Assembly: GCF_014764505.1 (NCBI RefSeq) | Contig: NZ_JACXWX010000001.1 | Location: 558,001 to 622,000, forward strand | Length of the DNA: 64,000 bases | DNA from: Phormidium tenue FACHB-886 | Lineage (GTDB): Bacteria; Cyanobacteriota; Cyanobacteriia; Elainellales; Elainellaceae | Direction of reading: 5' to 3' | Part shown: piece after piece, positions 26,076 through 29,921 of the stretch | Layout: each line of letters opens with the position of its first letter | How positions within the stretch are numbered: position 1 is the stretch's first letter | Notes under the pieces: model-generated | Seen by the model: the letters and a program-made list of their open reading frames with translations, nothing else | Database searches by the model: none | What the model was told of the DNA's origin: nothing | Program-made: the position numbers and the translations under genes

Positions 26076-26811
26076 AGCATTCCTTTTACGGGGCTAAGGG
26101 ACAGAGAGTAGAAGCAAAGCAGAAACAACAAAGGTGGGCTGCAAAATCTGACTGAGTTCGTCATTTCGCCCTGCTATAGCAGGTTGTCTGAATCAGCAAT
26201 CCTGAGTCAAAAATTCTGGATTAGCAACGCAGTACAGCAGATATAAAGAGGCAGGAAAAACCGGCTATTTACTCGTTCTGCTGCTCTCGTCGCGCTTCTC
26301 AGAGTCGAGCTCAAAAGATGCACGAAAAGTCTACTGGAATTAAACCAGTCATAATCTTTGATCAGTACTTATAAGGTAGTTTTGACTACAATTTCTTCCC
26401 TTAACCTGAATTTCACTTCATTTCTACAAATTAGGGCTGATTTGGGTAAAAACTTCATGAAGCTGCTTGTCAATCCCAGTATATTCAAGTAACAGATGTG
26501 TCAAATTTGTTCTGACTGAAGCCTTCTTCTTTTCCTTGGCTCCTCCATCCATTGGACATAGCGCTGCAGCAAGGCATCGAATAATGCTATACGGAAGTAA
26601 TAAATTGCTAACAGCTTTGATGCACAAATTATCTACAGGGTTGAGGATTGCAATCCAATACCTCGTCAGCAAAAACGGGTTTCATTCCTCGTTTTTCGAT
26701 GAACTCCTTCCAGTCCAAAGTAATTTGCAAAAAAAACTTTGCACAAGCTGACCATTCAATTATTCATGGCTAGACTAATGAAAGTTCTTTAGACTCGCCT
26801 GAACCATCCCT
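26076..26811. other. Gene-free AT-rich stretch before the ParA/ParB-like cassette
   Basis: Some 740 bp with no convincing gene. Open frames of about 80-95 codons on both strands (26424-26672 minus, 26467-26751 plus) lack start signals and look like chance or decayed sequence. The AT-rich second half lies directly ahead of the cassette and may be a decayed integration flank or its control region. Confidence 0.5.
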
Positions 26812-28230
26812 TTGGATATTTCTCATCAGCTCAAATTTCTTACGTCTATCACACCGGAGAGCAACGAGTCTGATATTACGCACAAAGTTGTGCTGCCACT
26901 CCTCTATATCCTTGGCTATCGTGATAGTGACTGGAGATCTCAAGTTGGAATTGGAAAAAACAAAGCAGATTTTCTGGTAAATCCTCCCAGCCTGTTGACG
27001 CATCATCCGCCATACTTGGTGATTGAGGTGAAAGCGTCCAACAAAAAAATTTCTCAAAGCATCTGGCAGATTAGCGAATACATGCGGCAATCTAGAGCCG
27101 TTCTGGGTCTTCTAACTAACGGCTATACGTTTCATCTGCTCTACCACCACCAAGGGCAAATTGTCACGATCGCCGAATATTCTCAGCCAACTCTGGTTAA
27201 ACACTTTGGCTTGGTTTACAAACTGCTCAGCAAAGCAACCTGCTTAAAAGTTCGAGGTGTTGTAGAGCGAAGCCAGGAGCAAATTCACTTAAGATTTGCC
27301 AGCTTGATTTCAGACGCATTTGATAGCCAAGAAATGCTGAAGCTATTAAGTAGGACTGAAAGCATCCAGCAACCCACTAAAAAGGATCGTAATATGATTA
27401 TCACTGTGTTCAACAACAAGGGTGGAGTTGGCAAAACAACCTTAACGATTAACCTGGCAGCGACATTAACAAAGTTAGGCAAACGAGTGTTACTCATTGA
27501 CATTGACGCTCAAGCCAACTTATCTATGGGATTAGGGATCGACCCATTAAATGATATTGAACTAAAGGGCAAAAAAGATATTACTCACTTACTGGTAGAA
27601 CCAAGAACCAGGCTTGGTGATGTAATTTACCAAAAGCGATGGGGTGATATTCAGCTAGACATCGTGCCGTCACATATAAGATTGAGCAAGATGGAGAATG
27701 AATTAATCCAGACGGTTGATAGCGATCGTATTTTGGTTAAAAAATTAAAGAATCATGGATATGATTTTATTTTTATCGATCCACCTCCGTCTTTTGGTAA
27801 GGTCAACAGTATATCGTTGATGGCATCATCCAGTATTTTAATCCCTACTCAACTGTCACCCTATCCAATTCGGGCATTAGAGTATGTGATTAACCGAGTA
27901 GAAGAAGTAGAAGATTACAAAGAAGAACCGCTGCCTATTCTGGGAGTTGCTGTCAGTATGTATGATCAGCGGTCAACCAGTTTCAATCTTGCAATGGAAG
28001 AGTCGCTTCGAGAAACTTTGGCTAAAAATTCAAACGGCAGGACAATCGAATTGTTTCCCGAAAGCACCTGGATACCCAGATTGAATGTCATCTCCAAATG
28101 CCCAGATCAAGGGTATCCAATTCAGCATGCAGAATTTGATGGTAATTTGAGTTCACAGGATCGAGAAACGGCTCAAACTGCAGTTTTGAAACTAGAGAAA
28201 CTGGCCAGCCACTTGATGAGTGTAATTTGA
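26812..28230 (+). CDS. HsdR-N (PD-(D/E)xK nuclease-like) domain fused to ParA-family ATPase
   Basis: This 472-residue protein has two parts. Residues 1-140 look like the N-terminal domain of type I restriction R subunits: DITHKVVLPLLYILGY, then KADFLV (Asp53), YLVIEVKA (Glu72, Lys74) and QISEYMRQSRAVLGLLTNGY with Gln86. This is the D...ExK...Q pattern of an active-looking nuclease. Residues 196-472 are a ParA/Soj ATPase with deviant Walker A KGGVGKTT (203-210), VLLIDIDAQANLS, YDFIFIDPPPS and a C-terminal helix. An in-frame stop at 26800 leaves TTG 26812 as the only reasonable full-length start. An ATG at 27394 with AAGGA 7 nt upstream could give ParA alone. Base composition is more AT-rich than neighbours. 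The ParB-like gene follows 11 bp later. Biological role unknown; partition or defence are both possible. Confidence 0.85.
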   Translation: MDISHQLKFLTSITPESNESDITHKVVLPLLYILGYRDSDWRSQVGIGKNKADFLVNPPSLLTHHPPYLVIEVKASNKKISQSIWQISEYMRQSRAVLGLLTNGYTFHLLYHHQGQIVTIAEYSQPTLVKHFGLVYKLLSKATCLKVRGVVERSQEQIHLRFASLISDAFDSQEMLKLLSRTESIQQPTKKDRNMIITVFNNKGGVGKTTLTINLAATLTKLGKRVLLIDIDAQANLSMGLGIDPLNDIELKGKKDITHLLVEPRTRLGDVIYQKRWGDIQLDIVPSHIRLSKMENELIQTVDSDRILVKKLKNHGYDFIFIDPPPSFGKVNSISLMASSSILIPTQLSPYPIRALEYVINRVEEVEDYKEEPLPILGVAVSMYDQRSTSFNLAMEESLRETLAKNSNGRTIELFPESTWIPRLNVISKCPDQGYPIQHAEFDGNLSSQDRETAQTAVLKLEKLASHLMSVI

Positions 28231-28241
28231 GGAGGGACATA

Positions 28242-29147
28242 ATGAGCCAAGACATCCGACGTGAGTTGATCAGTAGAAATCTTGGTATTAAACCCATTAA
28301 TCATGGGCAAATCCATACTTTTCAAATTGCTCTTCCAGATTCCAGAAAACAAGCTATTTCTTTGGAGCAAAGACAGGCTATTGAGAAAAGCCTTGTAGCG
28401 CACCAAAGTAATTTAATTTCACTCATCGTACGGCGTACAGATGCTTATGAGGATGAAGATATTGAATATGAGTTGGTTTATGGAGCTGATTGGCTACAGG
28501 TTGCTCAAGAACTAGATGTTGAGAAGGTTTGGGCGTGGGTTTTTGATATGACAGAAGAGCAGGCGATCGCGGCTATTGCCGAAATGGAATCGCTATCAGG
28601 AACTTCCAAAACTCCACAGTTCTCTGAAAAATCTTCTGATGAAATTGGCTCTGATATTGCAACTCTGATCGATCAAAAACTTCAGCTTGCTACCGATTCA
28701 ATTAGAAATTCGATCGCTTCGGCTCTCAATGGAATAAAACACGACCTAGACGAAAAGCTAAAGATTCTGAACTATAGAATCGATAGCCTAAACGACACAG
28801 GCAATAATCCGGACGGGCTAGAGGCAGTTCTAGAAAAGCTTGACACAATTCAGCAACAGCTAGCATCTCGGAAACCCCCAGTAAAATCAATAGGAAACCC
28901 AGTCAATCTACTAGAAGCCTCAGAGCAAGACATCGAAGCCGTTTTGAAACAAGTAGGGACTCAACCTAAACAAATCCGTGCTGCGATCGAGGCAGTTCGA
29001 TTCTGCAAACAATCTCAAGAAGGGCTGACATGGAGCAATTTGGAACATTCTGCTAAAGCGAAAAGCAGCTCTTCATACAAAATTGCTGGATTTGCTGAGG
29101 GAGCTTTGGCTCGACTGCAAGCAGCAGCATATATTCCTGAAGAGTGA
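28242..29147 (+). CDS. ParB-like N-terminal domain protein with coiled coil
   Basis: A 301-residue protein. Residues about 25-115 resemble a ParB/Srx fold: SLEQRQAIEKSLVAHQSNLISLIVRRT, then EYELVYGADWLQVAQELDVEKVWAWVFDMTEEQAIAAI. The canonical GERR CTP-binding box is replaced by YGADWL, so CTP switching may be lost. Residues about 140-215 are heptad-rich (LIDQKLQLATDSIRNS, LDEKLKILNYRIDSL, LEKLDTIQQQL), a likely coiled coil. The last 80 residues form a small helical domain (DIEAVLKQVGTQPKQI ... SYKIAGFAEGALARLQAAAY). GGAGG sits 6 nt before the ATG. It forms an operon with the nuclease-ParA gene and is probably its partner. Confidence 0.8.
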   Translation: MSQDIRRELISRNLGIKPINHGQIHTFQIALPDSRKQAISLEQRQAIEKSLVAHQSNLISLIVRRTDAYEDEDIEYELVYGADWLQVAQELDVEKVWAWVFDMTEEQAIAAIAEMESLSGTSKTPQFSEKSSDEIGSDIATLIDQKLQLATDSIRNSIASALNGIKHDLDEKLKILNYRIDSLNDTGNNPDGLEAVLEKLDTIQQQLASRKPPVKSIGNPVNLLEASEQDIEAVLKQVGTQPKQIRAAIEAVRFCKQSQEGLTWSNLEHSAKAKSSSSYKIAGFAEGALARLQAAAYIPEE

Positions 29148-29276
29148 TGCAGAATACTTTGTACTCATTTTGCACTTATTTGGACAGTACGAGTCTTCTC
29201 TACTGATTAGATTAATTGGTAGAAGCAGTGATTTGCCCTTTAGCTCTCACCTTTCAATCTTCCAGGGTCAGCTCTC

Positions 29277-29921
29277 CTACTGTTGAAACTGAGTCAATAG
29301 CCAAGCTCCCACCTGTGATTGATCCGTTTCTCGACCGCGCCGCAGCGCCTCCTCCAGAACAGCGATCGTCAGCCCCGGTAGCACCTGCGACTCCTGAATC
29401 CGTTTACTTCCCTGATCTGCCACCGCATAAGCAAGCAGTTGAGCATTCTGCACATCCACCACCCAATACTCACTCACGCCCAACTCCTCATACAGCGCTC
29501 GCTTCGTACCAATGTCATCAAGCAGCGTCGTCACTGCAACCTCAATCACCAAATCAGGAGCAGGCAGACGATTCAAATCAATCACAGAAGTTCCGCGTGG
29601 AATGAGCTGAGCGCGATCGCCAACATAATAGGAGACATCCGGCTGGCACTCCCCCACATCCACCTTGCGATAGCTACAGTTCGGCAAAATCTTGAGAGGA
29701 ATCCCTCTTGCAATTCCAAACAGGTTCACCGCTAGAGAAATAGTGCCATCATCTTCTGCGTGATCATGTCCAACGGGTGACATTTCAACTCTCATGTGGC
29801 CTTGGTAATAGTACCCTTTTGCCTGCCCATGAATCGGGTCTTCGATCGCCCGAACATATTCCTCCCAGGAAGCAGCAATCCAGGTATCCGTGCGCGATTG
29901 AGTTTGCTGTAAGTTGTTCAT
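29277..29921 (-). CDS. Uma2 family (DUF820) restriction-endonuclease-fold protein
   Basis: A 214-residue protein of the Uma2 group, which is greatly expanded in cyanobacteria. The PD-(D/E)xK-like core reads QPDVSYYVGD, then APDLVIEVAVTTLLDDIGTKRALYEELGVSEYWVVDVQNAQLLAY (residues about 125-170), with the Asp, Glu and Lys expected for metal-dependent nuclease chemistry. Activity and targets of this family are largely untested. It is convergent to the ParB-like gene, 129 bp apart. A link to that cassette is possible but may be chance because Uma2 genes are common. Confidence 0.9.
   Translation of the reverse strand: MNNLQQTQSRTDTWIAASWEEYVRAIEDPIHGQAKGYYYQGHMRVEMSPVGHDHAEDDGTISLAVNLFGIARGIPLKILPNCSYRKVDVGECQPDVSYYVGDRAQLIPRGTSVIDLNRLPAPDLVIEVAVTTLLDDIGTKRALYEELGVSEYWVVDVQNAQLLAYAVADQGSKRIQESQVLPGLTIAVLEEALRRGRETDQSQVGAWLLTQFQQ

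Follow-up and report, generated by a model that had tools for sequence, protein, structure and literature searches.

A restriction-nuclease-type domain fused to a ParA ATPase: a two-gene module of cyanobacteria that exchanges with an FtsK-nuclease cassette

Introduction

In the cyanobacterium Phormidium tenue FACHB-886 a single reading frame appears to join a domain of the type that cuts DNA to an ATPase of the type that segregates it, and the gene for a ParB-like protein follows directly behind. Is this fusion a genuine gene, and what would a partition-type ATPase do with a nuclease? If the protein cuts DNA, partition machinery, which until now has been known as a mover of cargo, would be linked to DNA destruction. 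No description of a ParA-nuclease fusion was found in a search of the open literature. The two genes, here called FUS (ORF1) and PART (ORF2), lie in a stretch of 64,000 nucleotides (G000:C1:558001-622000, hereafter the window). We analyzed them together with their relatives in 386 sampled cyanobacterial genomes and, beyond these, in collections of plasmids, phages and viruses and in one genome scan.

The fusion gene and its partner

The original prediction, made from the window alone, held that one frame joins a restriction-nuclease-like domain to an intact ParA. Pfam agrees and places two domains in ORF1, HSDR_N_2 (PF13588; residues 44-111, 28.5-30.4 bits against a cut-off of 25) and AAA_31/ParA (residues 196-373, 153.5 bits). 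The start of ORF1 matches that of its homologs, and an in-frame stop lies upstream at 26800. The predicted D53, E72-x-K74 and KGGVGKTT motifs are all in place (Table 1). Q86, which had been listed as a further motif residue, is replaced in the class B fusions described below and is not a family-wide feature, and an invariant glutamate, E19, has to be added to the list. The genome (8.9 Mb) contains further ParA genes and a single copy of the fusion.

The nuclease-type domain has the order helix-strand-strand-strand-helix-strand in a low-confidence model. The AlphaFold model of the whole fusion has a pLDDT of 38 (5 sequences in the alignment), and its Foldseek matches, ParA (8ray), Soj (8jmj) and HsdR (3h1t), are in line with the sequence result but do not prove it independently. 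When the profile of the N-terminal domain was searched against the PDB, a designed repeat protein and unrelated matches came up, but no nuclease.

Table 1. Features of the FUS-PART locus; positions are those of the window.
Feature	Position	Strand	Remarks
FUS (class A), fusion of HsdR_N-type PD-(D/E)xK domain and ParA ATPase	26812..28230	+	472 aa, TTG start; same architecture in homologs
Nuclease-type domain, residues about 13-118	26848..27165	+	Pfam HSDR_N_2 above cut-off; invariant residues
E19 codon, helix glutamate	26866..26868	+	53/53 in classes A and B; 69/70 in all classes, the exception being a gap
D53 codon, predicted metal ligand	26968..26970	+	Conserved among fusions
E72-x-K74 codons, predicted catalytic residues	27025..27033	+	70/70 fusions
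ParA ATPase domain, residues 195-472	27394..28227	+	AAA_31
Deviant Walker A, KGGVGKTT	27418-27441	+	Both Walker lysines kept in 69-70 of 70 fusions
Ribosome-binding site AGGAGGG between FUS and PART	28230..28236	+	From the sequence
PART, partner gene	28242..29147	+	301 aa; ParB_N-like domain, coiled coil, C-terminal helical domain
ParB_N-like domain, GERR replaced by YGADW	28281..28595	+	Profile match to ParB 6t1f/6sdk; PF02195 above cut-off in homologs
Predicted coiled coil	28635..28865	+	Model: long helix 132-185, helix 190-208
C-terminal helical domain, helix-hairpin-helix-like	28893..29138	+	Model pLDDT about 90; nearest structure ComEA

PART begins 11 bp after the stop of ORF1, and its long coiled coil and small helical C-terminal domain are as originally described. 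The window protein matches ParB_N only weakly in Pfam (E 0.046); its homologs reach 28-42 bits with PF02195, which is above the Pfam cut-off, and the profile of the family matches ParB (6t1f) and Spo0J (6sdk) at E 2e-5 to 5e-5. In the alignment to these two structures the CTP-binding GERR box of ParB is replaced by yGa/YGADW. The family profile thus bears out the notion of a ParB-like partner that has lost its CTP box. No HTH was found in PART.

The nearest solved structure to the C-terminus of the window protein is the helix-hairpin-helix (HhH) of ComEA (8dss), a modest match found with VIA-align (Z 4.8 over 63 residues, 2.5 A), and Foldseek returned nothing significant for the PART model in the PDB or among viral models. 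The C-terminus varies among relatives, being Rho_N (clade C, above cut-off), SAP/Rho_N-like (weak), HhH-like (weak) or of the window type. A small module for non-specific DNA binding may be the common theme of these ends, and this is also the probable function of the C-terminal domain in the window.

The island that holds the two genes has a G+C content of 40-43%, compared to about 52% around it, which supports the earlier impression of an AT-rich, acquired segment. The gene-free stretch of 740 bp noted upstream is indeed there and holds no repeats. We found no parS-like direct or inverted repeats of at least 10 bp in positions 26076-26830 (755 bp upstream) or 29140-29280, a search that a distant or single parS would escape. 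The downstream neighbor, which had been called a Uma2-type gene, is the open reading frame at 29277-29921.

The pair resembles several known systems without coinciding with any of them. As in ParABS, FUS is a deviant-Walker ParA and a ParB_N-like partner follows in the same operon. Unlike ParABS, the ParA carries a nuclease-type domain, the partner has neither CTP box nor HTH, no parS was found, and the genes are mostly chromosomal with no tie to a replication origin in the loci viewed. The N-terminal PD-(D/E)xK domain with its D...ExK motif is that of HsdR and other HSDR_N proteins of type I restriction, yet Pfam finds no SF2 helicase within the 472 aa of FUS; ParA takes the place of this motor, and neither HsdM nor HsdS is found alongside. 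McdAB, which positions carboxysomes, and ParI, an orphan ParA that destabilizes a plasmid, are likewise chromosomal ParA-type ATPases working outside chromosome partition (PMC6328274, PMC9178275), but they have no nuclease domain, and no carboxysome genes were seen beside the window locus. Against the defence models of PADLOC 2023 FUS-PART gave only short or weak matches, and no model covers the pair.

Distribution and conservation of the fusion

The N-terminal domain on its own has matches in 65 of the 386 cyanobacterial genomes. Its profile gives 64 strong matches (E <1e-37) spread over ~19 family labels, and the next-best matches appear only at E about 1e-13, a wide gap from other HsdR_N proteins. 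The fusion is accordingly counted in 64 of the 386 genomes. Nearly all strong matches belong to frames of 450-530 aa in which ParA is encoded as well, and a PART homolog comes directly behind the fusion in nearly all cases; in one clear exception (L081) a partner-like gene lies ~1 Mb away. The fusion family may extend beyond cyanobacteria.

The fusions form three supported clades, A (15 rows, including the window), B (37 rows) and C, of which classes A and B are about 26% identical. Across this distance E19, D53, E72 and K74 are invariant in the 53 A and B fusions, and with clade C included each is present in 69 or 70 of 70, the gaps coming from one truncated open reading frame. K208 of ParA is also essentially invariant across the 70 divergent fusions. 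The nuclease domain, with a dN/dS of 0.05-0.24, is under purifying selection. Since these values and those of ParA (0.02-0.26) are low compared to the linker (up to 0.8), two functional domains have been kept joined. A chance fusion or spurious frame, in which the two parts would never be found together in homologs, is ruled out by the 70 fused homologs, their invariant catalytic residues and the dN/dS of the nuclease domain.

ParA proteins of type Ia, such as SopA and P1 ParA, have an N-terminal HTH where the HsdR_N domain sits in FUS. The domain could thus be a catalytically silent DNA-binding or regulatory domain that has taken the place of this HTH, although Pfam shows only where the HsdR_N domain sits. 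We consider this very improbable: a silent domain should have lost its active-site residues, and all four are essentially invariant across three clades with deep splits between them.

The nearest relative of the window locus (L069:8001-9510, genome G060) has lost most of ParA. Its fusion frame is only 234 aa long and runs into a shortened partner gene, as after an internal deletion.

Exchange with an FtsK-nuclease cassette

Many fusions of the family f6, which we take to be Nostocaceae, adjoin a divergent gene for a 294-aa ParA. In 9 of 13 f6 genomes without a fusion this site instead holds a co-oriented three-gene cassette, consisting of an HTH-like protein (CL17), an AAA ATPase (AAA16) and a large protein (NF) of 850-930 aa with DEDD exonuclease, PD-(D/E)xK and FtsK domains, all above cut-off. 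The cassette is seen at L260:8634-14422, where the HTH-like protein has 280 aa, with equivalents in L258-L264, L266, L269, L275-L282 and L110. The stand-alone 294-aa ParA (L101:7084-7968, minus strand, and orthologs) is present in 14 of the 15 fusion-less f6 genomes tested; it adjoins either module and is the last gene of the FtsK-nuclease operon.

Among 109 f6 genomes 54 have the fusion and 54 have full-length NF; both modules occur together in 6, and 7 have neither (Fisher p 1e-16), a statistic only incompletely corrected for shared descent; one module or the other is thus present in 102 of the 109. Both states occur within 14 f6 genera. A within-genus shuffle omits the genomes with neither module and is biased toward exclusion, so we draw instead on the Fisher table and the remnants described below. 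Outside f6 the exclusion is not significant on its own. Of the six genomes with both modules, three have one visibly broken: G300 and G408 have a split or truncated fusion, and G400 has a stop in NF. In G412 the fusion is cut by a contig end, which leaves only G430 and G440 apparently intact for both.

FUS-PART has repeatedly replaced the FtsK-nuclease cassette. In L288 it sits inside the NF gene, flanked by NF residues 1-485 and 795-865. C-terminal pieces of NF remain in L097, L102, L289, L290 and L291, N-terminal pieces in L096 and L099, and remnants of AAA16 or CL17 in L089, L099, L115 and L124. Class A and class B fusions have both displaced the cassette. The same two modules also swap in family f10 at a second, unrelated site with both flanks shared. 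This site is bordered by ThrC and a desaturase gene, and at its other end by a long partner-like gene and a kinase. The remnants and the two sites argue for repeated replacement events despite shared descent.

Two modules with unrelated functions could show the same pattern if they excluded each other only through a shared insertion hotspot, as the common f6 site beside the 294-aa ParA gene and the physical disruption seen in the remnants would suggest. Mutual exclusion may indeed be partly physical, with both modules using one site. As a full account we find this rather unlikely: the modules swap again at the unrelated f10 site, the f6 site can hold both (G430, G440, G300, G400), one copy then often being broken, and genomes with neither module are few.

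Phosphorothioation and the displaced cassette

NF scores 229.6 bits against the SspH defence model of PADLOC, and the composition of the cassette is that of SspFGH and DndFGH, in which a Walker ATPase is combined with a small protein and an FtsK-like protein (PMC8092258). It also tracks dndC. This gene is present in 27 of the 29 genomes tested that hold the cassette, namely 14/15 in f6 and 13/14 outside, the latter compared to 30/63 among the remaining genomes tested outside f6 (p 0.002). Together, the SspH match, the FGH-like composition and the co-occurrence with dndC make NF-AAA16-CL17 plausibly a phosphorothioation-linked restriction cassette, and it may be the module of this kind in cyanobacteria. 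Within f6, 29 of 30 genomes have dndC above its curated cut-off, and those from which the cassette has disappeared are among them.

The fusion behaves differently. Outside f6, dndC accompanies 3/13 class A and 15/22 class B fusions, as against 12/28 genomes with neither module, and the window genome has none (20 bits against a cut-off of 290). FUS-PART would likewise be a nuclease or translocase module, but unlike SspFGH and DndFGH it contains no FtsK-like H subunit (Pfam), no F- or G-type proteins and no linkage to dndC. As the fusion is not tied to dndC, FUS-PART replaces the NF cassette without needing the modification. For the window genome and for class A, the dndC test led us to reject phosphorothioation-dependent restriction by FUS itself.

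In both modules a DNA motor or segregation ATPase is combined with a PD-(D/E)xK nuclease, which also raises the possibility of a housekeeping role. FUS-PART would then be a chromosome-maintenance nuclease that acts in polyploid cyanobacteria on DNA ends or on chromosome copies that are trapped or in excess, and the FtsK-nuclease cassette would do the same job with another motor. The presence of one of the two modules in nearly all genomes of one family would fit this, as would their stable chromosomal sites between core genes. On the other hand, about 290 of the 386 genomes of the phylum have neither module, class A and B alleles replace each other in spite of their low identity, and the displaced cassette is defence-like and tracks dndC. 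A housekeeping role thus seems to us distinctly unlikely.

Plasmid and viral copies

Fusions of clade C with Rho_N partners are found on two plasmids of Nostoc sp. UHCC 0870 (NZ_CP091917.1, 3772-5136; NZ_CP091922.1, 22257-23606) and on a viral contig of 58 kb (L153). A small site-specific integrase gene (183 aa) lies near the fusion on both plasmids (L240, L241). NZ_CP091917.1 also encodes ParM and two ordinary ParA/ParB pairs, and the fusion is therefore not needed as the sole partition system there. ParM was seen alongside the fusion pair on NZ_CP091922.1 as well.

An ordinary plasmid partition pair was rejected for the window, as its partner has no match in the plasmid collection, no plasmid ParA match covers 80% of the fusion, and only the distant clade C occurs on plasmids. 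FUS-PART could still be a variant ParABS-like system in which the nuclease resolves linked DNA or clears away copies that lag behind; on plasmids it would secure maintenance or keep out rivals. A ParA and a ParB_N-like partner in one operon, the plasmid and viral copies of class C, and the precedent of ParI (PMC9178275) would be consistent with such a role. Partition needs no nuclease, however, and the partner lacks the CTP box and a detectable HTH, the 755-bp upstream region has no parS-like repeats, and the plasmids in question already have canonical ParA/ParB and ParM genes. We therefore judge a variant partition system unlikely.

Possible mechanism and role

The reading we prefer, although we put it at somewhat less than an even chance, is that the FUS-PART operon encodes a ParA/ParB-like, ATP-driven DNA-surveillance nuclease. 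ATP-bound ParA would dimerize on DNA non-specifically and so bring two of the fused PD-(D/E)xK domains together. PART would dimerize through its coiled coil, hold DNA by its C-terminal HhH- or Rho_N-type domain, and mark or bridge the target while contacting ParA and triggering ATP turnover. DNA captured by both FUS and PART might then be cut. The role would most likely be the removal or restriction of unwanted DNA, whether plasmid, phage or aberrant chromosomal DNA, and in Nostocaceae-like genomes the pair would stand in for the three-gene FtsK-nuclease cassette. The architecture, the conserved catalytic residues, the linkage of the two genes, their spread over three clades and the repeated replacement of the cassette are observed; cleavage, its coupling to ATP, the target and the role are what we infer.

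Several observations speak against a surveillance nuclease. No defence model matches the pair, most fusion copies are stable single chromosomal genes, and an occupancy of 102/109 is unusual for defence. The plasmid copies coexist with ordinary partition genes, and a maintenance role is possible for them. The original prediction had proposed that ParA-type positioning may be coupled to cleavage, directed against plasmids or phages or in a modified partition module. The swap with an SspH/FtsK-type cassette speaks for a restriction-like role, but the occupation of that site in nearly all f6 genomes would also fit housekeeping. Cleavage and an anti-plasmid or anti-phage role are conjectural; most copies are single genes on chromosomes, and the pair is not covered by any PADLOC model.

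FUS-PART may be a DNA-policing machine of a kind not described before. A more specific proposal, which we regard as possible but doubtful, is that it represents a new kind of immune or policing system that powers a restriction-type nuclease with a gradient-type ParA ATPase instead of a helicase or translocase; it would be an interchangeable replacement for a phosphorothioation-linked FGH-like cassette in Nostocaceae, with a clade of its own for conflicts between elements on plasmids and viruses. If FUS-PART cuts DNA, the roughly 100 related genomes in which one site is taken by either of two unrelated motor-nuclease modules would amount to a natural experiment, and swaps or deletions at this shared site would make the purpose of chromosomal nuclease-motor modules directly testable.

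Related proteins outside the pair

Long partner-like proteins of 362-372 aa, with ParB_N and a Rho_N-like end, occur without an adjoining fusion gene at L106:10009-11109, L110:8635-9723 and L114:6887-8002. One of them belongs to a genome without any fusion (G129), where the long partner gene is adjoined by a gene for a 423-aa protein with weak PtuB/HNH-type matches (L110:10037-11305). Finally, four viral contigs (L218-L221:5929-6984) encode a 351-aa protein with an HsdR_N domain and no ParA.
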